The notes below the pieces were generated by a model. The model did not search any database, was not told where the DNA came from, and saw only the letters and a list, made by a program, of their open reading frames with translations. From assembly GCF_030165005.1 (NCBI RefSeq), contig NZ_JASNNW010000001.1:62001-126000 (forward strand): a DNA stretch of 64,000 bases. Direction: 5' to 3'. Positions 3,082 through 62,750 of the stretch are shown piece by piece; the first letter of the stretch is position 1, and each line of letters opens with the position of its first letter. The DNA comes from Blastococcus capsensis (GTDB lineage: Bacteria > Actinomycetota > Actinomycetes > Mycobacteriales > Geodermatophilaceae). The position numbers and the translations under genes are program-made.

Positions 3082-4350
3082 ATGCCCGGTTCCATCGACA
3101 CCGTCGTCGATCGTCACGTACTCCGGCTGTGCAGCGTGTTCGAGCCGCCGCCGGGCACCGAACAAGAGGCGACCGGCCGGCCCGGTGAGCTTCGTCCCCG
3201 GGCCGCCCGGTTCGACCCGATCGGCGGCATGCAGAACCACACCGCCGCCCTCACCCGCGCCCTGGACGCGCAGGCCGTCCAGCAGACGGTCGTCACCTCC
3301 CGGCTCGCCGCCCCGCGGTCGGTCACCCGGCTCGGGCAGTCGGCGCAGGTCCACCGGACGGGCCTGCCCCTCACGGGCCTGCGTCAGCTGTGGGCCCTGA
3401 CCGCCCTGGCTCACGTGCTCCGCCGTCCGCCCGCCGGCTCCGTCCGGCCGGTCGATCTGGTGCACGCCCACCAGGGAGAGGACATCGCGACGCTGCTGCT
3501 CGCGCGGCTGGCCGCGCGCCGGCACCGCGCCGGGCTGGTCGTCACCGTGCACTGCAGCGTGGGACACACCCTGCGCGGCGGCACGCTCCGGATCCGGCTG
3601 CTGCGTTCCCTGGGCGGCGTCGTGGAGCGGACCACGCTGCGCCGGGCCGACGCGGTGATCGTGCTGACCCAGCGGACCGCGGCTGCGCTGCGGTCCGACG
3701 GCGTCGACGCCGACCGGATCCACACGATCCCGTCCGGCTTCGAGCCGTCCCTGTTCGCCGCGGCCGAGAACGACACGCGGCCGCCATCGGCGCGTCCCCG
3801 GATCGGCTACGTGGGACGCCTGGCTCCGCAGAAGCGGGCCGACCTCCTGGTCCGCGCGTTCGGCCGGATGCGCCGGCCGGCCGAACTCGTGGTCGTGGGC
3901 GACGGGCCCGACCGCCGGCGGGTCGCGCACCTGATCCGCGAGAGCCCGGCCGCCGACCGGATCACGATGACCGGGTTCGTCGAGCACTCCGCCGTCCCGG
4001 GGGTGCTGTCCTCCCTCGACGTCCTGGTGCTGCCTTCTGCCTACGAGGAGATGGGATCGGTCCTGGTGGAGGCCATGGCCGCCGGCCTGCCGGTGGTGGC
4101 CAGCGACGTCGGCGGCATCCCGGAGGTCGTTCGGCACGGGGAGACGGGCCTGCTCGTCCCGCCGGGCGACGTGGACTGCCTGGCGGAGACGCTGGACCGG
4201 CTGGTGGCCGACCCGTGGCTCCGGGCCCGCCTCTCGGCCGGGGCGCGGGCCCGGGCGCGGGCCTACGCCTGGCCGGCGCTGGCCGCCCGCGTCACCGGCG
4301 TGTACGCGGCGGTCATGGGACCCGATGCGTCGTCCGTTCCCCTTGCATGA
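3082..4350 (+). CDS. GT4-type glycosyltransferase
   Basis: 422 aa GT-B enzyme. The N-terminal part has LCSVFEPPPG and RFDPIGGMQNHTAALTRAL, a GGMQ glycine loop typical of GT4. The C-terminal Rossmann domain shows RIGYVGRLAPQKRADLLVRAF near residue 240, VVVGDGPDRRRV, and the donor-binding segment LPSAYEEMGSVLVEAMAAGLP near 315, followed by VASDVGGIPEVV. Start ATG has GGGAGG upstream; in-frame sequence before it lacks coding character. Its stop overlaps the next start as ATGA, so the two are probably coupled. Likely part of the same surface-polysaccharide pathway as the GT9/GT4 pair on the other strand. Confidence 0.88.
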   Translation: MPGSIDTVVDRHVLRLCSVFEPPPGTEQEATGRPGELRPRAARFDPIGGMQNHTAALTRALDAQAVQQTVVTSRLAAPRSVTRLGQSAQVHRTGLPLTGLRQLWALTALAHVLRRPPAGSVRPVDLVHAHQGEDIATLLLARLAARRHRAGLVVTVHCSVGHTLRGGTLRIRLLRSLGGVVERTTLRRADAVIVLTQRTAAALRSDGVDADRIHTIPSGFEPSLFAAAENDTRPPSARPRIGYVGRLAPQKRADLLVRAFGRMRRPAELVVVGDGPDRRRVAHLIRESPAADRITMTGFVEHSAVPGVLSSLDVLVLPSAYEEMGSVLVEAMAAGLPVVASDVGGIPEVVRHGETGLLVPPGDVDCLAETLDRLVADPWLRARLSAGARARARAYAWPALAARVTGVYAAVMGPDASSVPLA

Positions 4351-29990: not shown

Positions 29991-30509
29991 TCATCGCCCT
30001 CCGAGCCGGCGGACGAGGACGGCGTCCTCACCGCGCTCGGTCAGGTCGGCCAGCAGGACCGAGATGGCCTCGCGGACGATCCGACCACGGTCGGCGGCCA
30101 CCCCGTGCTGGGCACGGAGGGTCAGCCGTGCGGACTCCAGCGCCAGCAGTTCGTCGGCGGAGATGTAGACGGTGATCTTCTCGTCGTGCTTGGCCCGCTC
30201 CGTGCGGCGCACGGGGCGCCCGCGGGTGGCGACCTTCGGCTGGAGTACCGGCGCGGGAGCCGGCTCGCCGGGCGAGCCACGGAAGCCGGCGAGGTCGTCG
30301 CCGAGATCGGCGCCACCGGGCACGAGGGTCAGCGGGGCCGCCGCCTCGGCGAGCTCCCCGGACCGGCGGGCACCCGCGGCGCTGCGCAGCGCCGGCGAGC
30401 TCGCCGGCGTCGGCAGGCTCGGCAGCTCGGTGACCTCGGCGGCCGACGATGCGGTGTCGGTGCGACGGAACAGCTCCGAGGCACCGGGGAGAACCGGTCG
30501 ACGCGTCAT
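29991..30509 (-). CDS. Putative ribbon-helix-helix DNA-binding protein
   Basis: 172 aa. Residues 1 to ~105 are low-complexity and disordered. The C-terminal part reads HDEKITVYISADELLALES, then GRIVREAISVLLADL: a beta strand and two helices as in ribbon-helix-helix repressors or ParB-like partners. It lies directly downstream of the ParA-like ATPase, so a partition-partner role is a reasonable inference, but not shown. I chose the ATG at 30509; open frame upstream runs through the intergenic repeat. Confidence 0.65.
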   Translation of the reverse strand: MTRRPVLPGASELFRRTDTASSAAEVTELPSLPTPASSPALRSAAGARRSGELAEAAAPLTLVPGGADLGDDLAGFRGSPGEPAPAPVLQPKVATRGRPVRRTERAKHDEKITVYISADELLALESARLTLRAQHGVAADRGRIVREAISVLLADLTERGEDAVLVRRLGGR

Positions 30510-30586
30510 GCCGACACCCCCTCGCCGGCGCTCGGCGGCAGCATGAGCCGCGTCGCTCCGCCGTTGTGTGTTCTCGCCGGACCGAT

Positions 30587-30666
30587 CACGACTCTCTCCT
30601 CGCTTCGCTCGTCGTCGCCGTGATCGGCGATGCTGTGTCCTCTTGTGACCTCGCAAGCTCGGTCAC
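30587..30666 (-). repeat. Junction element, family A, copy 1
   Basis: About 80 bases from the parA-like stop codon leftward. On the minus strand it starts with the stem GTGACC and ends with AGCGAGGAGAGAGTC. The hairpin (6-bp stem, 10-nt loop) is at 30645-30666 and includes the parA-like TGA. Aligned by eye, it closely matches the element at 41935-42011. Confidence 0.75.
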
Positions 30667-31568
30667 AGGGCCAGCACCTCCTTGGCGAGGTCCCGGTACG
30701 CCGAGGCGCCCGAGGACGTGGGCGCCCACGTGGTGATCGGCTGACCGGCGACCGTGGTCTCCGGGAACCGCACGGTGCGCTGGATGACGGTCAGGAACAC
30801 GGTGTCGCCGAAGGCCTCGACCACCCGGCTGAAGACCTCCCGGCAGTGCACGGTCCGGGAGTCGTACATGGTGGCGAGGATGCCGTTGATCTCCAGCGAC
30901 GGGTTCAGCCGCTCCTTGACCTTGTCGATCGTGTCGACCAGAAGCGCGACACCACGCAGCGAGAAGAACTCGCACTCCAGCGGGATGACCACGCCCTGGG
31001 CGGCGGTGAGCGCATTGACCGTCAGCAGGCCGAGCGAGGGCTGGCAGTCGATGAGGATGTAGTCGTACTCGTCCCGGACGTCGGCCAGCACGCGCAGCAG
31101 GGTCTGCTCGCGCGCCACTTCGCTGACCAGCTGCACCTCGGCGGCGGACAGGTCGATGTTGCTCGGGACCAGATCCAGACCGGGGATGTCGGTGGGCACC
31201 CGCACGTCACGCAGGCTGGTCCGCCGCTCCATGAGGGCGTTGTAGATGGTCCGGTCCAGGTTCTGCGCCGGCACGCCCAGCCCCACCGACAGCGCGCCCT
31301 GCGGGTCGAGGTCGATGAGCAGCACCTTGCGGCCGAACTCCACCAGCGCGGCACCCAGGTTGATCGTCGACGTGGTCTTGCCGACGCCGCCCTTCTGGTT
31401 GCACATCGCGATGACGCGGGCGGGTCCGTGCTGGGTCAGGGGCTTGGGGTCCGGCAGGCGGCGCTGACGCGCCTTCGCCGGGTCCTGTCGCAGCGCGGCC
31501 GCCCCCATCTCGGGGTCGGTGTCGTGCGGGCGCGCGACGGCAGAGGCCGCGTCCGCTCGGATCGCCAT
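30663..31568 (-). CDS. ParA-family ATPase (Soj-like)
   Basis: 301 aa ParA/MinD-type ATPase. The deviant Walker A is IAMCNQKGGVGKTTSTINLG near residue 57, followed by VLLIDLDPQGALSVGLG (A' motif), YILIDCQPSLGLLTVNAL (Walker B) and LECEFFSLRGVALLVDTI. By position (upstream of scpA) it matches the second ParA of actinobacteria (Rv1708 type), not the oriC-linked copy; it probably acts with the ribbon-helix-helix protein or SMC-ScpAB. Its stop lies inside the family A hairpin. Confidence 0.9.
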   Translation of the reverse strand: MAIRADAASAVARPHDTDPEMGAAALRQDPAKARQRRLPDPKPLTQHGPARVIAMCNQKGGVGKTTSTINLGAALVEFGRKVLLIDLDPQGALSVGLGVPAQNLDRTIYNALMERRTSLRDVRVPTDIPGLDLVPSNIDLSAAEVQLVSEVAREQTLLRVLADVRDEYDYILIDCQPSLGLLTVNALTAAQGVVIPLECEFFSLRGVALLVDTIDKVKERLNPSLEINGILATMYDSRTVHCREVFSRVVEAFGDTVFLTVIQRTVRFPETTVAGQPITTWAPTSSGASAYRDLAKEVLAL

Positions 31569-31777
31569 GGGTAGTCGCCTCCAGCTCGTGCCCGGTCCGG
31601 ACGTTCCGGGTGCGGTCAGCCGTCCTGTCCGCTCGGGTGACGAGGACGCTAGGGAGCCGGGAAGATCTTCCCAAGGCGGCACGCCGTCGACGTGTCGACA
31701 TGGCGACGAATGCCAACCAGTGTGACCGCTCAAGCCGAGTGGTTCCCAACATGTGCCGAACTTCGAGCGACTGGCTG

Positions 31778-32731
31778 TCAGGTCAGGGCGCGGGGATGGC
31801 TGGTGGCGTAGACCTCGCGAAGCCGGTCGACGGTGACCAGGGTGTAGACCTGCGTGGTGGTCACCGACGCGTGGCCGAGCAGCTCCTGGACGACGCGCAC
31901 GTCGGCACCACCGTCGATCAGGTGGGTGGCGAAGCAGTGCCGAAGGGTGTGCGGCGAGATCTCGCCGCTGAGGCCGGCCCGCTCGGCCGCCGTCCGGAGG
32001 ATGGACCAGGCGCTCTGCCGGGACAGCGGGCCACCGCGCGCGTTCAGGAACAGCGCGCCGCCGCGGACGCCGCCCGTGCCCTTTGCCGCCAACGCCGGGC
32101 GGGCACGCACCAGGTAGCCCTCGATGGCCCGCAGGGCGTAGCTGCCCACCGGGACCACCCGCTCCTTGCCCCCCTTCCCGGCCAGCCGCACGGTGCTCTG
32201 CCCGCGGTCCAGGTCGTCGACGGCCAGCCCGACCGCCTCCGAGATGCGGGCGCCGGTGCCGTAGAGCAGCTCCAGCAACGCCCGGTCCCGCAGTCCCCGG
32301 GGGCCCTCGAGGGAGCCGGCCGCCTCGATCAGCGCCACCACCGATTCGACCGGGATCGCCTTGGGCAGCCGCCGGGCCGGCGTCGGGGGCCGCACCTCGT
32401 GCGCGACGTCGTTCCCCACCAGGCCGTCGAGGAGGGCGAACCGGTGCAGGCCCCGGACGGCGACGACCGCCCGCGCCGCCGAGGTCGCCGACAGCGGCGG
32501 ATGGCCGTCGTCCCCGCGGCGCAACGCGGCCAGGAAACCGGCGACGTCGGACTCGGCGACCTCCCGCAGCCCCCGCACTCCGGCCGCCGCCAGGTACTCG
32601 GTGTAGCGCCGGAGGTCTCGACGGTAGGAGGCGATGGTGTTGGCCGCCAGGCCCCGCTCGACGGTCAGATGGTCCAGGTAGCCGGTCACCACCCGCTCGA
32701 CGTCGGGACCGGCGGACAGCGCGCTGGTCAC
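31778..32731 (-). CDS. xerD: Tyrosine recombinase XerD
   Basis: 317 aa site-specific recombinase that with XerC resolves chromosome dimers at dif. The N-terminal SAM-like domain has [27 protein letters not shown]. The catalytic domain has the first arginine in [19 protein letters not shown], the HxxR motif in [20 protein letters not shown], and [16 protein letters not shown] with the nucleophile tyrosine. GGAGTGA ahead of the GTG at 32731 decides the start. Position between pyrG/Nudix and parA matches chromosomal xerD of other actinobacteria, not a phage integrase. Confidence 0.95.
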
Positions 32732-32751
32732 GCTGTCACTCCGGTCCTGAC

Positions 32752-32883
32752 TCCGCGCGCCGGTCCGCTCCTCACTCTCATGCCAAGGCCACCTCCGCGG
32801 TCGCTCCGCTCCTCGCTCGTTCCTCGCTGCGATGCTCGCTCCCTGTCGGCGGCCGCCTCGCTGCGATGCTCCCGTCGCTGTCG
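32752..32883 (-). repeat. Junction element, family B, copy 1
   Basis: Fills the gap between the ald stop and the xerD start. About 85 bases at 32788-32870 are nearly identical to 34948-35033, including GGTCGCTCCGCTCCTCGCTC and GCTGCGATGCTC. Rich in GAGCGAGGAG repeats on the coding strand. Confidence 0.8.
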
Positions 32884-33999
32884 TCAGGACAGCACCTCCT
32901 GGAGCGGTACGGCGTCCATCCCGTGCGCCTCGGCCACCTCCGGGAGCACCACGCTGCCGGCGACGACGTTCACGCCGTGGGCCAGCGCCGGGTTGCGCCG
33001 TACGGCCGCCGACGTGCCCTCGGCCGCCAGCGCCGTCACGTAGGGCAGCGTGACGTTGGTCAGCGCGTGCGTCGAGGTGTTGGGCACCGCGCCCGGCATG
33101 TTCGCCACGCAGTAGAAGACCGACTCGTGCACCCGGAACGTCGGGTCGTCGTGGGTGGTCGGCCGGGTGTCCTCGAAGCAGCCACCCTGGTCCACGGCGA
33201 TGTCCACGAGCACCGATCCGGGCTTCATCCGCGAGACCAGTTCGTTGCTCACCAGGGTCGGCGCCTTGGCGCCGGGCACGAGCACCGCCCCGATCACGAG
33301 GTCGGCGTCGAGCACGGCGCGCTCCACCTCGTAGGCGTTCGACGCCACGGTCTGCAGGTGCCCCCGGTAGATCCGGTCGGCGGCACGCAGCTTGTCGATG
33401 TCGCGGTCGAGGACGACCACCTCGGCCTGCATGCCGAGGGCGATGGCGGCGGCGTTCATCCCGGAGACGCCGGCCCCGATGACCACGACCTTCGCGGCGT
33501 AGACGCCGGAGACCCCGCCGAGCAGGACCCCGCGCCCGCCGTGGGCGCGCTCGAGGCAGTGCGCCCCCACCTGCGGCGCCATCCGCCCGGCGACCTCCGA
33601 CATCGGGGCCAGCAGCGGCAGCGCACCGTCGGCGCTCTGCACCGTCTCGTAGGCGATCGCGGTGGTTCCCGAGGCCACCAGGGCCTCGGTGCACTCCCGG
33701 GAGGCGGCCAGGTGCAGGTAGGTGAACAGCGTCTGGCCGGCCCGCAGCCGGCCGTACTCCTCGGCGACCGGCTCCTTGACCTTGAGCAGCAGGTCGGCGT
33801 CGGCCCACACGTCGTCGGCGGAGGCCACGATGCGGGCGCCGGCCGCGGTGAAGTCCGCATCCGGGATCGAGGAGCCCTCCCCCGCCCCCTGCTCTACCAG
33901 CACCGAGTGCCCGGCCCGGGTCAGCTCGGTCACCCCGGCCGGGGTGAGCGCCACCCGGTACTCGCGGTTCTTGACCTCTCGGGGAACCCCGACCTGCAT
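32884..33999 (-). CDS. ald: Alanine dehydrogenase
   Basis: 371 aa NAD-dependent enzyme interconverting L-alanine and pyruvate plus ammonia. Starts [21 protein letters not shown] (substrate-binding Arg/Lys region), with [18 protein letters not shown], the NAD-binding [33 protein letters not shown] and [20 protein letters not shown] near the end. Length is as expected. A 106-base stretch before the next conserved block has no gene; ald is flanked by repeats on both sides. Confidence 0.96.
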
Positions 34000-34312
34000 C
34001 GATGACTCTCCTGGTCCCGGCGGACAGCTCCCGAGGTGACGGAAGGCCCCACCGCGTCGTGGGCCGCCCGGTCGGGGCGGACCTCGGGCGGAGTGTAGGC
34101 ATGCACCCCGGCGGATCCGGGGTCCTGAGCCGATTCGTCACCGGCCCGTGGTGCCTGCGGTCGGCCGTCGGGCTGCCGCGGCGGGCGCGCTGACCGACCC
34201 TGACCGGGGCGAGGCTGTGCCGCCCGCTTGCGCGAGGATGCGGTTATCGGGGCAGGTGATACCGCCCGCGCGCGCAAGAACGCGGTTATCGGGCCGGACG
34301 ACGGCGGCCGGC
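34000..34312. other. Non-coding gap with two imperfect tandem repeats
   Basis: 313 bases between the ald start and the Nudix stop. It holds a 42-base-period direct repeat at 34220-34295; each copy contains CGCCCGC and CGGTTATCGGG. No coding potential is evident. The ald promoter must lie between 34000 and about 34150, but I cannot place it. Confidence 0.5.
34220..34295. repeat. Two-copy tandem repeat, 42-base period
   Basis: CCGCCCGCTTGCGCGAGGAT then GCGGTTATCGGG, and 42 bases later CCGCCCGCGCGCGCAAGAAC then GCGGTTATCGGG. It lies just past the Nudix stop. Confidence 0.7.
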
Positions 34313-34906
34313 TCAGGTGGCGTCGACCGGCCGCAGCCGGGGCCCGGCCGCGCGGGCCTGCGCGGCGGCCAGCACCCCGACCACCGCGGCGACGTTGCGG
34401 ATGCCGCCGTCGAAGACCCGCTGCACCGCGTCGGCGAGCGGCACCCGCTCGACGGTGAGATCGGCCTCCTCGTGCTCGGCGGTGAACCCCTCGGGGCGCG
34501 GCACGTCGCTGAGGTCCTCGGCGAGGTAGACCAGCACCATCTCGTCGCAGAAGCCCGGGCTGCTGTAGTGGGTCGTCAGCAGCGACCACCGCCCGGCGGC
34601 CAGCTGCACCTCCTCGGCCAGCTCCCGCTTCGCGGTCTCCAGCGGCGGCTCGCCGTCGGCATCGCGGAGACCTGCCGGCAGCTCCCACAGGTAGGCACCG
34701 ACCGGGTGGCGGTACTGCCGGAGCAGCACCACGTTCCCCTCGTCGTCGAGCGCGACGACGGCGACCGCACCCACGTGCCGGACGACGTCCCGGACGCTCT
34801 CGCCCCCGCCGGGCATCGCCACCGTGTCGCGGTGGAGGGAGATGATCGGGCCGTCGTAGACCGTCTCGCTGCCCAGCACCCGGTAGTCGTGCCCGTCGGT
34901 GCTCAT
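34313..34906 (-). CDS. Nudix hydrolase (ADP-ribose pyrophosphatase-like)
   Basis: 197 aa. VRHVGAVAVVALDDEGNVVLLRQYRHP is typical of ADP-ribose pyrophosphatases. The Nudix box spans GEPPLETAKRELAEEVQL (G, then E, RE-x-EE), the metal-binding helix. Downstream LLTTHYSSPGFCDEMVLVYLA fits the ADPRase subgroup, which cleaves ADP-ribose to AMP and ribose 5-phosphate. Lies between pyrG and ald/xerD, as does the homologue near Rv1700. Confidence 0.9.
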   Translation of the reverse strand: MSTDGHDYRVLGSETVYDGPIISLHRDTVAMPGGGESVRDVVRHVGAVAVVALDDEGNVVLLRQYRHPVGAYLWELPAGLRDADGEPPLETAKRELAEEVQLAAGRWSLLTTHYSSPGFCDEMVLVYLAEDLSDVPRPEGFTAEHEEADLTVERVPLADAVQRVFDGGIRNVAAVVGVLAAAQARAAGPRLRPVDAT

Positions 34907-34911
34907 TGCTC

Positions 34912-35060
34912 GACTCCGGACTCGTTCCGCTCCTCGCTCGGAGCCGTAGGCCGCCTCCGCGGTCGCTCCGCTCCTCGCTCGCTGGCGCTCGCTGCGATGC
35001 TCACTCCCTGTCGGCGGCCGCCTCTCTGCATGCTCGCTCGCCCGTCGTCTTCGACGGCCA
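34912..35060 (-). repeat. Junction element, family B, copy 2
   Basis: Fills the gap between the pyrG stop and the Nudix start. The block 34948-35033 matches 32788-32870 closely. The left end supplies the GGAGTCGAGC in front of the Nudix ATG. Confidence 0.8.
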
Positions 35061-39167
<4,107 letters not shown>

Positions 39168-39171
<4 letters not shown>

Positions 39172-40316
39172 GGGCCCGGTCGGGCCGCCGGTGGCCCCAG
39201 CAGCTCGCGGTAGATCCCGACCAGCTGGGCGGCCGTGGCCTCCTCGTCGGGCCAGGTGGCTGCCTGCCGCCGTCCGGCCTCGACCAGGTCGGCGGCGTGG
39301 GCGCTGTCGCGGAGCACCCGCACCACCGCCTCGGCCAGCGCACCGGCGTCGCCGACCGGAACCAGCTCGGCGGCCGCGCCCAGCAGGTCCGGCAGGCCGC
39401 CGGTGCGGGTGGCCACCAGCGGGACGCCGGCCCGGAGGGCCTCCTGGGCGGTGAGGGACCGGGCTTCCCAGCGGGACGGGAGCACGCAGAGGTCGGCGGC
39501 ACCCAGCAGGTCCGCGACGTCGTCGCGGCGGCCGAGCAGGGTCACCGGGAGGGCGTCGGCGCGGATGCGGTCGGCCAGCTCGTCGTGCAGCGGGCCGTCG
39601 CCCGCGACGACCACCGACGGCGCCGGGTGCAGCCGCTGGTCGGCCGACCAGCGGGCGACCGCGTCCAGGAGCACGTCGTAGCCCTTCTGCGGGTGCAGCC
39701 GCCCGACCGCGACCACCAGGGCCCGGTCGTCGACGATGCCCAGCTCCTCGCGCACCTCGACACGGGTCCGCGTCGCCCCCGGCAGCGGCGGCGCCGAGAC
39801 CGGCGCCGGCCGTACGTCGCGGGCACCCTGCCGGCGGGCGTTCTCGGCCAGGTCCTCCGATGCGGCGAGGACCACGTCGGCGGCTCGCACGGTCGCGCGC
39901 TCGGCCTGCGCGAGCAGCCGCCGGCGCAGCCCGCCGCCCTCGGGCAGGGCGTTGTGCAAGGTGAGGACCAGCCGGGTGGAGCGGCTCCCGAGGCGGCGCG
40001 CGGCGGCGGCGACCAGACCGGCCCGCAGCCCGTGGGCGTGCACGAGCTCGCTGCCGGCGACCGCACGCCGCAGCGCCCGCACGGCCCGGATGTCGGCGGC
40101 GGGCGCGAGACCGGCGGATATCTCCACCGCCGTGAAGGACGCGCCCCGACCGGAGAAGCCGAACAGCTCGTCGGTGGCTCGTGGCCCGCACACCCGCACG
40201 GCGGCCCCGGATGCCGCCAGCGACGGCAGCAGCGACCGCACATGGGTGCCGACCCCGCCGGTGCTGGTGGCGAGCACCTCGCTGATCCGGCGGTCGCGCA
40301 GGGGCGGCTCAGCCAC
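39168..40316 (-). CDS. GT4-type glycosyltransferase
   Basis: 382 aa GT-B enzyme. The N-terminal domain has VLATSTGGVGTHVRSLLPSL and LVHAHGLRAGLVAAAA. The C-terminal domain has VVAVGRLHPQKGYDVLLDAV, VVVAGDGPLHDEL and the EX7E segment LPSRWEARSLTAQEALRAGVP. It sits in a coupled operon between a MurJ-like flippase (8-base overlap) and the AlkP-like membrane protein (4-base overlap). It probably glycosylates a lipid-linked intermediate or surface polymer. Confidence 0.9.
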
Positions 40317-41934
40317 CGCGCACCTCCTGCCCGCCCGTCGACCGCAACTCCCGGAACGCGCCCACGAGCTGCGCGCGGGCCGTGCCCATCATGACGGCCG
40401 CGGCGACGAGGAGCACAGCGCCCCCGGCCAGGAACCCGGTGGCCACCGTGGCCAGGACGCTGCCCTCCGGCACCGGGTCGGCACCCAGCTCCCGCGCCAG
40501 CCAGGTACCGGCGCCACCGGCGAGGACGGCGGCCAGCAGCGCGACCGGGCCGCTGCGCCCCAGCCCGCGCAGCGACGCCGGGCCGGCGACCCGCGCCACC
40601 ACGCCGAGCAGGCCGACCCCGGCGACGGTGACCCCCAGCGTGTGCCCTGCCGCCAGCGCCAGCGCGCGGTCGGCCGCGGGCAGGATCCGGGCGAGGACGA
40701 CGTCGGCGGCGACGGCGAGCAGCCAGCCGCCCAGCACGCACACGGTCGGAGACCGCCACAGGCCGCGGGCGTACAGCGCCCGGGTCAGCACGGCCACGAG
40801 GCCGTAGCCGAGCAGTCCCGGGGCGAAGGCGACGACGGTGTCCCGCAGCGCCACGACCTCCTCGGCCGGCTCCGCGGCGAGGAATATTCGGGCGATCGGG
40901 CCGGCCGCGGCGACGAGGGCGGCCGCCGCGACGGCGGAGGCCGCCACCGTGAGCACCACGACCGGCGCGAGGACGCGGCGGTATCCGGCCTCGTCCCGGT
41001 CGTCCGCGCGCTCGGCGAGCGCCGGGTAGACCGACGTCGCAAGCGGCACCGCCAGCGCTGCCCACGGCAGCAGGAAGACCGTGAGCCCGGCGGCGTACAC
41101 CACCTGCGTGCCGTCGGGTGCGCCGTCGTTGGCCAGCCGGATGGCGACCGCCGCGAGCAGCTGCTGCCCGGCGAGGGTCAGGACTCCGGCCAGGGCCAGC
41201 CGCCGGACGCGGGGTGCCGCACCCACCGGGAAGCGCAGCGCCGGCCGCAGCCCCAGCCGGAGCCCGCGCATCGGCACCAGCAGGCTGAGGCTGAGGACGA
41301 CGACGCCGAGCGTCGTCCCGACGCCGAGCACCAGCTCGGCCGGCGTCGACAGGTCGGCGACGTCCCGTGCCCCGCCCATGGCCGCGAAGACCAGGTACGC
41401 CGCCGCGACGACGAGGCTGGACAGCAGCGGCGCCACCGCCGGACCGGCGAACCGCCGGTGGGCCTGCAGCACTCCGGTGAGAACGATGCCGATCCCGTAC
41501 AGGACGACCTGCGGCGCGAAGACCACCAGGAAGCGGGCCGCCAGCTCGACCTCGGCCTCCTCGCCGCCGCCGAGCAGCAGCCGCGCGATCGGCTCGGCGA
41601 ACAGCGCGAGCAGGGCCGCGAGCGGGACGAGCAGCAGCAGGGTCCAGCCCAGCAGCGCGGACGCGGTGCGCCGGACCTGTTCCCGGTCGCCGGCGGCGAT
41701 ACCGCCGGCCAGCATGGGGACGACGAGACTGGCCAGTGCGCCGCCGGCGACGACCTCGAACACGATGTTCGGGACGTTGTTCGCCGCGAGGTAGACGTCG
41801 CCGGTGCTGTCCGCGCCAACGGTGTTGGTGAAGACCAGCGTGCGGCCGAACCCCGCCGTGCGGGCCAGCACGGTGAGCCCCGCGATCAGCGCGGCGGCCC
41901 CGGCCACGCCGCCTGCGACCCGCCGCGCGTTCAC
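40309..41934 (-). CDS. MurJ/MviN-like lipid II flippase family protein
   Basis: 541 aa polytopic protein with about 14 helices, starting AALIAGLTVLARTAGFGRTLVF, a MurJ/MOP-superfamily beginning, then YLAANNVPNIVFEVVAGGALASL and VLTGVLQAHRRFAGPAVAPLL. Such proteins flip lipid-linked sugar intermediates. This is probably not the main MurJ, since it sits with a MraY-like enzyme and a glycosyltransferase in the steAB region and lacks an obvious cytoplasmic kinase-like domain. The GTG start is preceded by GAGGAG, which belongs to the junction element. Confidence 0.88.
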   Translation of the reverse strand: MNARRVAGGVAGAAALIAGLTVLARTAGFGRTLVFTNTVGADSTGDVYLAANNVPNIVFEVVAGGALASLVVPMLAGGIAAGDREQVRRTASALLGWTLLLLVPLAALLALFAEPIARLLLGGGEEAEVELAARFLVVFAPQVVLYGIGIVLTGVLQAHRRFAGPAVAPLLSSLVVAAAYLVFAAMGGARDVADLSTPAELVLGVGTTLGVVVLSLSLLVPMRGLRLGLRPALRFPVGAAPRVRRLALAGVLTLAGQQLLAAVAIRLANDGAPDGTQVVYAAGLTVFLLPWAALAVPLATSVYPALAERADDRDEAGYRRVLAPVVVLTVAASAVAAAALVAAAGPIARIFLAAEPAEEVVALRDTVVAFAPGLLGYGLVAVLTRALYARGLWRSPTVCVLGGWLLAVAADVVLARILPAADRALALAAGHTLGVTVAGVGLLGVVARVAGPASLRGLGRSGPVALLAAVLAGGAGTWLARELGADPVPEGSVLATVATGFLAGGAVLLVAAAVMMGTARAQLVGAFRELRSTGGQEVRGG

Positions 41935-42011
41935 GGACTCTCCTCGCTGGCGCTCGTCGGCCGTGTCCGCGGCATTGCTGTGCCCCTTGGTGAGCTCGCG
42001 AGCTCGCTCAC
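41935..42011 (-). repeat. Junction element, family A, copy 2
   Basis: Covers the whole gap between the MraY-like stop and the MurJ-like start. Hairpin at 41990-42011: stem GTGAGC/GCTCAC with a 10-nt loop. The corresponding pair in copy 1 is GTGACC/GGTCAC, a compensatory change. The left end (minus-strand GCGAGGAGAGTCC) provides the ribosome-binding site for the flippase gene. Confidence 0.8.
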
Positions 42012-42847
42012 GAGGACAGGCGACCGAGGCGGTCCAGCTCCCTCAGGCCCGGCGTGGCCTCGATGACGCGGGTGAAGCTCACCCGTTCGCTGGCCAGCGT
42101 CAGCCCGGTGACCACGGCCAGTGCGGCGGCCCGCGCCGGGCGGGAGGGCAGCTCGGTGAGCCGGAGACCGAGCAGCGCGCCGAGGGCGTTGGCGCCGCAG
42201 TCCCCCAGCATGATCCGCTCCCTCAGGTCGTGGGGCAGCACCGCGAGCGTGGCGCCCAGCGGCCCCGCGACCAGCCCGCCGGCGGGTCCGGGCAGCCCTG
42301 CGAGGGCGGCGAGGGCCCCGACCTTGGCCGCGCGGCCCGGGCGCAGGTCCAGGAGGTTGAGCAGGTTGGCGCAGCCGGCCACCAGCCCGGTGGTGAGCAC
42401 GCCGTCGACCAGCGCACCGGCGCCGCGGTCGCGGCTCCGGGTCAGGAGGGCGGCGACGGCGGCGGCGGTGCCGATGCCGGCGACCTTGACGGCGCCGGCG
42501 GAGACCCGGCCCTCCCGCAGCGCACGCAGGTGGCCGGCCAGCCCCTTGTCGCGCGCCTGCTCCGGACGGGCACCGGCGAGGTCGTCGTAGCCACCCACCA
42601 GACCGGAGACGGTACCGACGACCGCCGCCGCGGCACGGGCTCCGGGCGGCGCACCCAGCACCGCGGTCGCGGTGGCCGACAGCGCCAGCACCGGGCCACC
42701 GAGCAGGCTCACCGGCCGGCCGGCGTAATTGGTGCGTCGCCACGGCCGGCCCGCCGGCCGCGCGATCAGCGCGGCGCCCGCGGTCAGGGCGGCCCGGCCC
42801 AGGACGGCCCCGGCCAGTGCGGTCCGAGCGAGGTGCCGGGCGCTCAC
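42008..42847 (-). CDS. MraY/WecA-type glycosyl-phosphate transferase homologue
   Basis: 279 aa membrane protein resembling polyprenyl-phosphate sugar-phosphate transferases. Visible marks: RTNYAGRPVSLLGGPVLAL, VGGYDDLAG (catalytic Asp pair region), CANLLNLLDLRPGRAAK (nucleotide/Mg site) and IMLGDCGANALGALLGLRL. It is shorter than MraY (~350 aa), so it may be a divergent or specialised member. GTG start overlaps the steB stop (GTGA). Together with the flippase and GT4 it could make and export a lipid-linked glycan. Confidence 0.8.
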   Translation of the reverse strand: MSARHLARTALAGAVLGRAALTAGAALIARPAGRPWRRTNYAGRPVSLLGGPVLALSATATAVLGAPPGARAAAAVVGTVSGLVGGYDDLAGARPEQARDKGLAGHLRALREGRVSAGAVKVAGIGTAAAVAALLTRSRDRGAGALVDGVLTTGLVAGCANLLNLLDLRPGRAAKVGALAALAGLPGPAGGLVAGPLGATLAVLPHDLRERIMLGDCGANALGALLGLRLTELPSRPARAAALAVVTGLTLASERVSFTRVIEATPGLRELDRLGRLSS

Positions 42848-43791
42848 TGCGCGGCGGCGGGCAGCGGCGGCACCGGCTGGGTGTCCTCGCCGGTCCCGTA
42901 CATCCCGGACGTGCCGAGCGACTCCTGGCCCAGCGCCAGCACGGTGCTGATGCGCCCGAGGACGGTCCCGACGTTGTCGACGGTGGAGATGGCCGCGGCC
43001 AGGGCCGGGTCGGCCCGCAGCACGCCGATCAGCCCGTTCTCCCGAGCCGACGGAGCGTCCCCGGCAACGACCGCGCCGGCACCGCGCGAGTCCAGGGCCG
43101 TCACCAGCTCGACGAGCGCGGCGTTGCGCTGGTCGGCGTCGTCCCCGTTGAACCCGCTGCCGGTGAGCACGATCGCGTGGTCGGCCGGCGCCACCGAGGC
43201 ACCCTCGGGGACCAGCACGTCGAGGGAGGTCAGCCCGGCGAGCACCGAGGAAAGGGCGGCGGTGTCGGGAACCGGACCACCCGGCGGGATCACGAGCACC
43301 TGGGAGAGCAGCGAGGCCACGAGGGTCTCGGCGTCGCCGGTCTCGGGCAGCTGGATGCCCGCGGGCAGCCCGGAGCCGGTCACGTAGCTCTGCAGCGCCG
43401 CCGTGGTGGCCGGGTCGCTGTACTCGGGCTGGAGGCGGACCACGCCGCTGACCGATCCGCCGGCCTGGTCGACCAGCGCCGTGACCTGCTCCACCGTCTC
43501 GGCGGTGACGCTCTCGTTCGTGGGGACCAGCACCACGCTGCGGTCGGCGAGGGTGCCCTCGACCAGCACGGGGCCCACGGCCTCCTCGAACGCCTGGCCG
43601 GACTCCAGCTGCGCCTCGAGCTCCTGGGTGCGGTCCTCCAGCGCCCGCTTGTCCTGCTCGAGGTCGGCCACCTGTCCCTCGATGCCGGCCTCGATGGGCT
43701 CGTTGAGGGCGGTGGTCCCGATGACGATGCCCAGCGCGACGGCCAGGAAGACGGCGATCAGGGACACCAGGTGGTAGCGGAAGTCGATCAC
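42844..43791 (-). CDS. steB: SteB/MctB-family membrane-anchored protein
   Basis: 315 aa homologue of Rv1698 (MctB, earlier called a copper transporter or outer-membrane channel) and of corynebacterial SteB, which works with SteA in cell separation. An N-terminal helix (FRYHLVSLIAVFLAVALGIVIG) anchors it, then a coiled coil (EGQVADLEQDKRALEDRTQELEAQ) and an extracytoplasmic domain. GTG start overlaps the steA stop as GTGA. Gene order steA-steB supports the assignment. The copper role is debated; septal function is more consistent with this context. Confidence 0.85.
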   Translation of the reverse strand: MIDFRYHLVSLIAVFLAVALGIVIGTTALNEPIEAGIEGQVADLEQDKRALEDRTQELEAQLESGQAFEEAVGPVLVEGTLADRSVVLVPTNESVTAETVEQVTALVDQAGGSVSGVVRLQPEYSDPATTAALQSYVTGSGLPAGIQLPETGDAETLVASLLSQVLVIPPGGPVPDTAALSSVLAGLTSLDVLVPEGASVAPADHAIVLTGSGFNGDDADQRNAALVELVTALDSRGAGAVVAGDAPSARENGLIGVLRADPALAAAISTVDNVGTVLGRISTVLALGQESLGTSGMYGTGEDTQPVPPLPAAAQ

Positions 43792-44975
43792 GAGAAGAGG
43801 TTCTCCAGCCAGAAGACGAAGCTGTTCCATTGGTCGAGCAGCAGGTCGACGTACACCCGGCCGACTGCGGAAACGGCGAGAGCGGCACCGATCGCCGCCA
43901 GGGCGGCCAGCACCATGATCACCAGGACGGTGGTGGAGATGCGGCTGCGGTAGAGGCGGCTGACGCCCTTGGCGTCGACGAGCTTGCCGCCCAGGCGCAG
44001 GCGGGTGAGGAAGGTCGAGGCCATGCCTCCGCGGCCCTTGTCGAGGAACTCGACGAGCGTGGCGTGGGTGCCGACGGCGACGATCAGCGTGGCGCCCTTC
44101 TCGTCGGCCAGGAGCATGGCGATGTCCTCGCTGGTGGCGGCCGCGGGGAACGTGATGGCCTCCACGCCGAGGTCCTGCACCCGCGCCAGGCCGGGGGCGC
44201 GACCGTCGGCGTAGGCGTGGACGACCACCTCGGCGCCGGACCGGAGGACGTCGTCGCTCACCGAGTCCATGTCGCCGATGATCATGTCGGGCGAGTAGCC
44301 GGCGTCGACCAGCGCGTCGGCGCCGCCGTCGACGCCGATGAGCACCGGGCGGTAGTCGCGGATGTAGGAACGGAGGGCGTGCAGGTCCTCCTTGTAGTCG
44401 TAGCCGCGGACGACCACGAGCACGTGCCGGCCCTCGATCGACGTGGTGACGTCGGGGACGCCGACACCGTCGAGCAGGAGTGCGCGCTCGCGCTTCATGT
44501 ACTCCATGGTGTTGGCGGCGAACGCCTCCAACTGCACGGAGAGACCGGCCTTGGCCTCGGCCATGGCGGCGGCCACCGTCCCGGCGTCCTGGGCGGTGCC
44601 CTCGGCGACGACGGTGCCGTTCTCGTCGAGGAGCCGGCTGCCGTCCAGCCGGACCCCGTCGCCTTCCTTGAGCTTGGCGAAGACGTCCCGGCCGACGTCG
44701 TCGAGCAGCGGGACGCCTGCGTTGATCAGGATCTCCGGGCCGAGGTTGGGGTACCGACCCGAGGTGCTGGGTGCGGCGTTGACCACCCCCGCCACCCGAC
44801 AGCCGACGAGTGCGTCGGCGCTGACCCGGTCGATGTCGACGTGGTCGATGACGGCGATGTCGCCGGGGCGCAACCGCTTCGTCAGGTTCTTGGTGCGGCG
44901 GTCCAGACGGACGGTGCCGGCGACGCCGGGCCCGCTGTCCTGTGCCCGGCCGCGGCGAACGGTGCCGATGCGCAT
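43788..44975 (-). CDS. steA: SteA-like cytokinetic ring protein
   Basis: 395 aa, homologous to Rv1697/SteA with a thiamin-pyrophosphokinase-like central fold. It starts VRLDRRTKNLTKRLRPGDIAVIDH, has NAAPSTSGRYPNLGPEILINAGVP, then the TPK-like VLIGVDGGADALVDAGYSPDM and IIGDMDSVSDDVL. A C-terminal helix (ISTTVLVIMVLAALAAIGAALAV) anchors it in the membrane. By homology SteA interacts with SteB and the divisome to promote daughter-cell separation. It is the first gene of the steA-steB-MraY-like run and diverges from a TetR gene. Confidence 0.88.
   Translation of the reverse strand: MRIGTVRRGRAQDSGPGVAGTVRLDRRTKNLTKRLRPGDIAVIDHVDIDRVSADALVGCRVAGVVNAAPSTSGRYPNLGPEILINAGVPLLDDVGRDVFAKLKEGDGVRLDGSRLLDENGTVVAEGTAQDAGTVAAAMAEAKAGLSVQLEAFAANTMEYMKRERALLLDGVGVPDVTTSIEGRHVLVVVRGYDYKEDLHALRSYIRDYRPVLIGVDGGADALVDAGYSPDMIIGDMDSVSDDVLRSGAEVVVHAYADGRAPGLARVQDLGVEAITFPAAATSEDIAMLLADEKGATLIVAVGTHATLVEFLDKGRGGMASTFLTRLRLGGKLVDAKGVSRLYRSRISTTVLVIMVLAALAAIGAALAVSAVGRVYVDLLLDQWNSFVFWLENLFS

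Positions 44976-57617: not shown

Positions 57618-62750
<5,133 letters not shown>

Follow-up and report, generated by a model that had tools for sequence, protein, structure and literature searches.

Repeated elements at two gene joints

The window analysed in this study is a stretch of 64,000 nucleotides (nt) of Blastococcus capsensis DNA (contig NZ_JASNNW010000001.1, forward strand, positions 62,001 to 126,000), and two of its gene joints, both on the minus strand and one of them ahead of a gene for a MurJ-type lipid II flippase, hold copies of the same short repeat. We consider it quite probable that these elements are copies of a mobile cassette resembling the mycobacterial interspersed repetitive units (MIRU), with a net length of 77 nt, inserted precisely at RTGA start codons (R is A or G). 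The original prediction, made from the sequence of the window, was that the two sites share about 80 bases, and the elements are in fact slightly longer, 81 nt each when both GTGA ends are counted. As that prediction also described, the stop codon of the upstream gene (TGA at 30665-30663 and 42010-42008) lies at the start of each element, within a stem of 6 bp with a 10-nt loop; the stems read GTGACC-GAGCTTGCGA-GGTCAC in copy 1 and GTGAGC-GAGCTCGCGA-GCTCAC in copy 2, with the pairing that had been claimed for each. Each element is a single small open reading frame (ORF) that begins with a GTG overlapping the TGA upstream and ends with a TGA overlapping the GTG that comes next. Copy 2 does provide the ribosome-binding site of the next gene, a GAGGAG ahead of GTG 41934. 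The features of the two copies are as follows.

30586..30666, minus strand: copy 1, 81-nt element GTGACC...GTGA with small ORF VTELARSQEDTASPITATTSEARRES and stop; covariance-model match C14:92586-92666, E=2.8e-14
30661..30666, minus strand: copy 1, 5' arm of the left stem, GTGACC, including the upstream stop TGA 30665-30663 and the GTG start of the small ORF
30645..30650, minus strand: copy 1, 3' arm of the left stem, GGTCAC, element positions 17-22
30620..30630, minus strand: copy 1, positions 37-47, TCGCCGATCAC, from the sequence and the family-wide test
30596..30601, minus strand: copy 1, Shine-Dalgarno-like GAGGAG ahead of the 3' GTGA, from the sequence
30506..30589, minus strand: copy 1b, a degenerate second copy of 84 nt, GTGATC...ATGA; covariance-model match C14:92509-92589, E=1.1e-5
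41931..42011, minus strand: copy 2, 81-nt element GTGAGC...GTGA with small ORF VSELASSPRGTAMPRTRPTSASEESP and stop; covariance-model match C14:103931-104011, E=1.6e-17
42006..42011, minus strand: copy 2, 5' arm of the left stem, GTGAGC, from sequence and fold
41990..41995, minus strand: copy 2, 3' arm of the left stem, GCTCAC, from sequence and fold
41965..41975, minus strand: copy 2, positions 37-47, ATGCCGCGGAC, the target-matching segment, here a poor match to the junction GTGAACG
41940..41945, minus strand: copy 2, Shine-Dalgarno-like GAGGAG, from the sequence

Copy 1b follows copy 1 head-to-tail, with one GTGA shared by both, and since copy 1 is thus succeeded by a degenerate copy, the next gene probably starts at ATG 30509. 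Elements likewise precede a gene similar to this one at loci L201 and L225. The neighbouring genes are:

30663..31733, minus strand: gene upstream of copy 1, ParA/MinD-type ATPase (AAA_31), Pfam E=1.6e-61
29991..30509, minus strand: reading frame of 172 aa that follows copy 1b and opens with ATG 30509; Pfam gave no match at E≤0.001
42008..43888, minus strand: ORF upstream of copy 2, 626 aa counted from its first GTG (putative start), no Pfam match at E≤0.001
40309..41934, minus strand: gene downstream of copy 2, MurJ-type lipid II flippase starting at the last GTG of the element (41934), Pfam MurJ E=3.8e-48

The family and its anatomy

A covariance model built from 18 distinct copies of the B. 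capsensis genome was used for the genome-wide search that the original prediction had called for, and it recognized 58 copies at E≤2.4e-5 in the 4.4 Mb of this genome, or 63 at E≤1. All of the 22 other Blastococcus genomes searched have matches at E≤0.1, with 3 to 60 matches per Blastococcus genome, as have 12 of 13 genomes from other genera of the Geodermatophilaceae, although one of the 12 reaches only 0.02. Among 200 sampled genomes of the order, 42 (that of the window included) match at E≤1e-4, 25 of them in the family of the window, from which at least 28 genomes were sampled, and 17 outside it; in a sample of the class, 8 of 197 genomes match at E≤1e-6, again counting that of the window. 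Pseudonocardiaceae should be among the families outside Geodermatophilaceae that carry the element. At E≤1e-4 we counted 33 copies in Pseudonocardia nigra, 15 in Pseudonocardia endophytica, 52 in Amycolatopsis arida, 23 in Sciscionella sediminilitoris and 1 in Gandjariella thermophila, next to 44 in Modestobacter lapidis, 37 in Modestobacter sp. DSM 44400 and 5 in Geodermatophilus aquaeductus. A sequence-pattern scan returned at least 113 stretches, and the taxa read from 80 among them are a lower bound. No curated Rfam covariance model matches the element at its gathering score, the four matches in the window being three rRNAs and one tRNA elsewhere, and a literature search that reached few subscription papers found none on such elements in Geodermatophilaceae or Pseudonocardiaceae.

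In a first extraction, with a search pattern that required a 3' TGA and left start and frame free, all 22 copies started with [AG]TGA and had one open frame, at a length of 81 (20 copies) or 84 nt (2 copies). The larger set of 217 distinct copies comes from the B. capsensis genome and from fetched loci; where a TGA lay within 4 nt, the 3' end was shifted to it, which favours the count of GTGA ends. Of these copies 163 are 81 nt long and 192 have a length divisible by 3; 173 start with GTGA and 18 with ATGA, and 205 end with GTGA. Tandem copies recur every 77 nt, that is 81 minus the shared GTGA, and a Shine-Dalgarno-like core lies within a block like GACGAGCGCCAGCGAGGAG ahead of the last GTG. 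By coding-frame statistics, the frame set by this last GTG gives the strongest coding signal downstream in 47 of 57 copies of the B. capsensis genome, and 9 of the other 10 have another copy next; the upstream frame terminates at the TGA of the element in 35 of the 57. It is the start of the downstream gene that anchors the element more constantly, and the upstream stop is present there because start and stop often overlap. The copies do not always begin at a stop codon, as 21 of 206 lack [AGT]TGA at the left end; the random placement that would have spoken against the original prediction was not seen.

Several unusual copies were seen. Longer variants occur in the B. capsensis genome at C27:376911, C8:42188, C11:44003 and C27:338206 (three of 105 nt and one of 103), with an extra hairpin-like insert CTGGGGGCACCTCCCGCTTGCGGGGGACAG, slightly changed in some, inside the Shine-Dalgarno block. 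A shortened copy at L468 (same genome, C48:122200-122650) has kept the left hairpin and the right GTGA and lost the Shine-Dalgarno block, and the TC after its ACAGCA still equals the TC of the flank. Near a copy at 3158 (minus strand) of L207 the internal stretch GCGAGGACACAGCACC is tandemly repeated upstream of a partial copy. The window also holds a repeat pair of another type, about 100 nt long and rich in CGCTCCGCTCCTCGCTCG, at 32761-32864 and 34923-35029; its pieces are 85% and 95% identical (families D12 and D15), and no relation to the cassette was seen.

Element-free start codons in related genomes

With pieces of the downstream proteins we located the orthologous genes of 34 B. capsensis loci in genomes of the same genus, for a total of 108 comparisons. 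In 86 of these an RTGA stands exactly where the start was projected, and the relative lacks the element; in 13 the RTGA is displaced but in frame, in 2 there is none nearby, and 7 show an element-like match that ends at the site (for one of them with no better than E=7.9), so that these relatives seem to carry a copy or a remnant too. At least one relative with an exact element-free RTGA was found for 33 of the 34 loci. The copies therefore look like precise insertions at start codons, usually at those that overlap a stop, and we infer that the difference from the relatives reflects insertion rather than loss. At the site of copy 2, for example, ...TCGTGA runs straight into the murJ-type gene in two relatives, with GTGAGC and GTGAGT at the corresponding position, and the window has 77 extra nucleotides. 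The genes behind the cassettes include yebC-, icd-, cysD-, folA- and murJ-like ones, named by eye from their proteins, with only MurJ checked against Pfam.

Covariation in the left hairpin

The original prediction took the C/G exchange between the two window copies as covariation, and thus as evidence for selection on structure. The covariation is real and extends beyond these two copies: pairing is maintained through compensatory change. For the two window copies the claim is not supported in the form given: their C/G difference mostly separates two inherited lineages, and is not by itself a compensation event. We examined 107 distinct stems from 206 of the 217 copies (8 were excluded by name and 3 were dropped for a diverged loop). 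Watson-Crick and GU pairs make up 90% of the positions, compared to a mean of 77% and a maximum of 80% in 1000 shuffles, and 81 cells are changed on both sides, compared to 26 in the shuffled sets (maximum 39). There are 14 distinct arm pairs that are fully Watson-Crick, and standard pairs are changed on both sides at 5 of the 6 pairs, although this last number does not exceed the same 1000 shuffles (mean 3.5, maximum 6). Counting GU, six positions are paired in 62 stems, five in 29, four in 13 and three in 3; copies without complete pairing, which had been named as an argument against a selected structure, are thus found in part, 45 of 107 stems having one to three unpaired positions.

The same signal emerges from a structure-blind scan of all column pairs in 100 copies of 81 nt (one per downstream-gene cluster, from the 116 clusters of 148 terminal intact copies), in which columns 5 and 18 form the strongest covarying pair, Watson-Crick in 97 of the 100. 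Compensated differences occur even between copies at orthologous sites, such as GTGACC/GGTCAC vs GTGACG/CGTCAC, or GAGACC/GGTCTC vs GCGACC/GGTCGC vs CTGACC/GGTCAG; groups 3, 7, 10 and 15 of these copies show compensation, with a second insertion at the same site possible for some groups. Of the 21 copies without a left [AGT]TGA, 12 still have all six positions paired (GU counted), and the stem therefore does not need the stop codon. A variant arm GCGAAC recurs in place of GCTCAC, for example at L144 and at C45:127623 of B. capsensis; opposite GTGAGC it would give tandem G-A mismatches. In the G lineage, GCGAAC is common at positions 42-47 as well. For the two window copies, folding of the entire element gives an unremarkable energy (z = -0.86 and -0.20).

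A match to the target inside the element

The part of our results that a specialist would not expect is a link between the interior of the element and its target. When columns of the chromosomal flank were added to the scan of 100 copies, it was noticed that, family-wide, the first three chromosomal bases beyond the insertion are repeated at positions 37-39 and complemented at positions 41-43. In this first set position 37 is identical to flank base 82 in 93 copies and position 43 complementary to it in 93, while 42/83 are Watson-Crick in 89 and 41/84 in 73; no column of the left flank gave a comparable signal. All these counts rest on fixed columns, as counts at the best offset are inflated. 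The pattern was then tested on a hold-out set of 47 copies, from which 17 matches had been omitted (7 in the first set, 7 before another copy, 2 without a TGA end and 1 of other length). Identity was found in 41 copies for 37/82, 38 for 38/83 and 34 for 39/84, against shuffled means of 19.2, 31.4 and 19.1; complementarity was found in 43 for 43/82, 39 for 42/83 and 29 for 41/84, against 19.7, 31.4 and 21.3. The hold-out is not fully independent, since some of its copies occupy sites orthologous to those of the first set (for example L457 and C6:5089 of B. capsensis). Reading from position 37, identity with the flank is clear for three bases and weak for four or five; runs of at least 3 occur in 75 of 147 copies, as opposed to about 17 expected from shuffled flanks, and 8 of the 147 have 5-6 bases.

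A further comparison is with the bases that relatives have at the element-free site, which could be used for 24 of the 34 loci (81-nt element, RTGA exactly at the projected start). Complementarity holds in 20 of the 24 for position 43 with base 5 of that site and in 16 for position 41 with base 7, and position 37 is identical to base 5 in 17; these counts were reached by 12, 0 and 23 of 5000 shuffles, respectively. At loci C24:12965 and C1:56749 the interior complements the bases of the relatives and not the differing flank of the copy itself. Furthermore, among elements with near-identical bodies and different flanks, positions 37-39 follow their own flank; 434 pairs, which are not independent of each other, gave 4.87 matches per 6 against 3.26. 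In the window, copy 1 has TCG at 37-39, the same bases as behind its last GTGA, and its CCGATCAC is an exact complement of the right junction GTGATCGG.

Two other accounts of the flank signal were tried and dropped. Base 5 tends to equal flank base 5, which would suggest a 5-nt target-site duplication at the left end, but in near-consensus copies this holds for 31 of 36, vs 36 of 36 for the 5/18 pair. Flank base 82 is predicted better by the lineage marker 37/43, in 87 of 88 scorable copies, than by base 5 (of the 100 copies, 11 could not be assigned and 1 has a flank base other than G or C). Since the flank follows this marker, base 5 is only indirectly linked to it, and a guide at positions 17-22 was abandoned for the same reason.

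Interpretation

These results can be interpreted as the work of a MIRU-like cassette that enters genes at the start codon. Because the small ORF present in most copies overlaps both the upstream stop and the downstream start, the 4-nt overlap is rebuilt on both sides. Ribosomes ending the upstream gene would restart at the GTG of the cassette and read the mini-ORF, and a second restart at the downstream GTG would be aided by the cassette's own Shine-Dalgarno sequence; with translation coupled in this way through the mini-ORF, insertion should hardly harm coupled genes. Selection on the mRNA near the restart codon may maintain the left hairpin, or the DNA hairpin may correct itself. The target-matching bases would be fixed at insertion. 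They may be copied from the target, as a duplication that ends up in a displaced position, or the element may hold an internal guide that pairs with its target; that 37-39 turn over rapidly while the rest of the body stays similar speaks somewhat for copying. More tentatively, and as a proposal to which we give somewhat better than one chance in three, a 77-nt element with no protein of its own would have an internal target-recognition segment at 37-47 (NNN, followed by the reverse complement of RTGANNN), which either pairs with the start region of the target gene or takes its sequence from there. If true, the element would be a minimal insertion system directed at start codons, matched to them by a guide or able to retarget itself.

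Some of our observations weigh against this interpretation. The length of 25 of the 217 copies is not divisible by three, and among the 54 copies that differ from 81 nt 29 have a length that is. The peptide looks unconstrained, with non-consensus frequencies of 0.175/0.166/0.150 by codon position; as there is no excess of change at the third position, the frame and not the peptide seems to matter, and even frame 2 is almost as open as frame 0 (12 vs 4 internal stops in 173). With respect to the bases of the relatives, 38/base 6 (15 of 24), 42/base 6 (15 of 24) and 39/base 7 (9 of 24) are at chance level, perhaps because base 6 is mostly C in the case of 38 and 42. Copy 2 itself matches its flank poorly (ATGCCGC, flank ACG). 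Finally, a search for the Y1 transposase (PF01797), which gave matches in 6 of 14 control genomes, found none in 22 Blastococcus genomes including that of B. capsensis; it was not aimed at other mobilising enzymes.

Among the alternatives, ordinary transposition with a short target-site duplication, with the 5' hairpin module standing between the left RTGA and the duplicated bases, is a reasonable contender, if still short of an even chance. It fits the identity of 37-39 to 82-84, at times over the 5-6 bases noted above, and the fact that closely related bodies bear different triplets that suit their own sites; there is also a seeming parallel in the mycobacterial-type copies described below. 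The copied bases lie 32 nt inside the element and not at its end, an arrangement that no standard transposition known to us produces, and the reverse complement at 41-43 is left unaccounted for.

Selection on the mRNA alone appears rather unlikely to us. In this case the two start codons would be shielded by the left hairpin together with a long stem on the right (41-53 with 72-84), and 37-43 would drift to fit the downstream gene with no target recognition. The compensated differences between copies at orthologous sites agree with such a process, as do single folds, which give the left hairpin in both window copies and the right stem in copy 2; moreover, in many copies the arm 41-47 reads N'N'N'TCAC, the complement of GTGANNN, and could cover the downstream start codon. 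Pairing by 41-43 does not imply the excess of identity runs between 37-39 and the flank, and the two interiors that complement the relatives' bases in place of their own flank, like the near-identical bodies that differ at 37-39 according to their site, are hard to reconcile with it.

Quasipalindrome correction, by which template switching in replication perfects the arms of a DNA hairpin, would make the covariation mutational, with no need for selection; we regard it as similarly doubtful. Pairing persists in copies that have lost the left [AGT]TGA, and some arm pairs are unlike the common one at two or more positions (for example CCGAGC/GCTCGG), as correction would have it. The GCGAAC arm, with its two unpaired positions, stays uncorrected in about one stem in ten (G-A at 3/20 in 10 of 100 copies and 10 of 107 stems), and correction alone cannot tie the interior to the chromosomal flank. 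Least probable by far is a non-autonomous element moved by a Y1 (HUH) transposase, possibly a past one since lost: the end hairpin, the fixed tetranucleotide at the site and the interior complementary to the site would suit it, and a genome with about 60 copies and no PF01797 match speaks against it.

Comparison with known systems

The insertion sequences (IS) of the IS200/IS605 type, and the repetitive extragenic palindromes with their associated tyrosine transposases (REP/RAYT), have hairpin ends, a fixed short target motif and element sequence that pairs with the site. The start-codon cassette shares all three, but it carries a small ORF, is specific for start codons, and lives in a genus in which the search described above returned no Y1 transposase. 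In IS110/IS1111 elements the non-coding part, a bridge RNA or seekRNA, has segments that match both strands of the target. The cassette also has segments matching both strands, but in 77 nt without a recombinase, and both of its internal triplets refer to the same three bases.

A close likeness is with MIRU, whose sites, where stop and start codons overlap, carry the label DTGA. MIRU are described as inserting at start codons, with a spacing of -4 and with an ORF inside the repeat that is coupled to the gene (PMC12548453); they are also described as having a tandem unit of 77 bp and as restricted to M. leprae and the M. tuberculosis complex (PMC4213456). The cassette, too, sits at start codons or overlapping stop-start sites with a 4-nt overlap, most but not all of its copies have a small ORF whose ends overlap the neighbouring genes, and its head-to-tail tandem copies repeat with the same 77-bp unit. 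It differs in not being confined to mycobacteria, as it occurs in Geodermatophilaceae and Pseudonocardiaceae, in its extra 5' hairpin module, and in having the target-like bases at 37-43 and not directly after the left RTGA.

For a sequence comparison we used a mycobacterial-type set built from a MIRU-like motif, which is not an authenticated MIRU sequence. This motif occurs in 19 of 397 genomes of the order, all of one genus, and the reversed pattern has 0 matches. In 38 terminal copies of this type, base 5, which follows the left RTGA, is the same as its counterpart behind the right RTGA in 31, and base 6 is so in 24. A homology to MIRU through shared blocks is attractive by eye, but it failed both tests: nhmmer gave 11 matches at E≤10 (best 0.7) on 70 loci and 2 on 90 cores, and the alignment score of the two consensus sequences was reached by 143 of 2000 shuffles. 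A module similar to the insert of the longer variants is present in the mycobacterial-type loci L365 and L367; the GGGGGCACCTCCC-type insert, shared by the 105-nt variants and some loci of this type, was likewise set aside as proof of homology, as the module may be a separate repeat. With homology unsupported, the cassette is best described as working like MIRU and is not classed as one.

The enterobacterial repeat units RU-1/2/3 are described as small mobile repeats of 103-168 bp at many intergenic sites, able to carry ORFs and similar to miniature inverted-repeat transposable elements (PMC2759123). The cassette resembles them in being a small, mobile-looking repeat with an ORF; overlap with the start codon is a feature of the cassette. 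Short coupled leader ORFs are described as passing ribosomes to the next start (PMC12548453); in the cassette the leader is itself a dispersed repeat. The cassette also illustrates how an insertion can stand before conserved genes and yet keep the overlap between genes intact. How MIRU-like repeats move is, to our knowledge, an unsolved question, and the mechanism of this movement becomes testable in these genomes, where well-paired copies are numerous, sister species offer sites free of the element, and a signature in the interior reports on the site.

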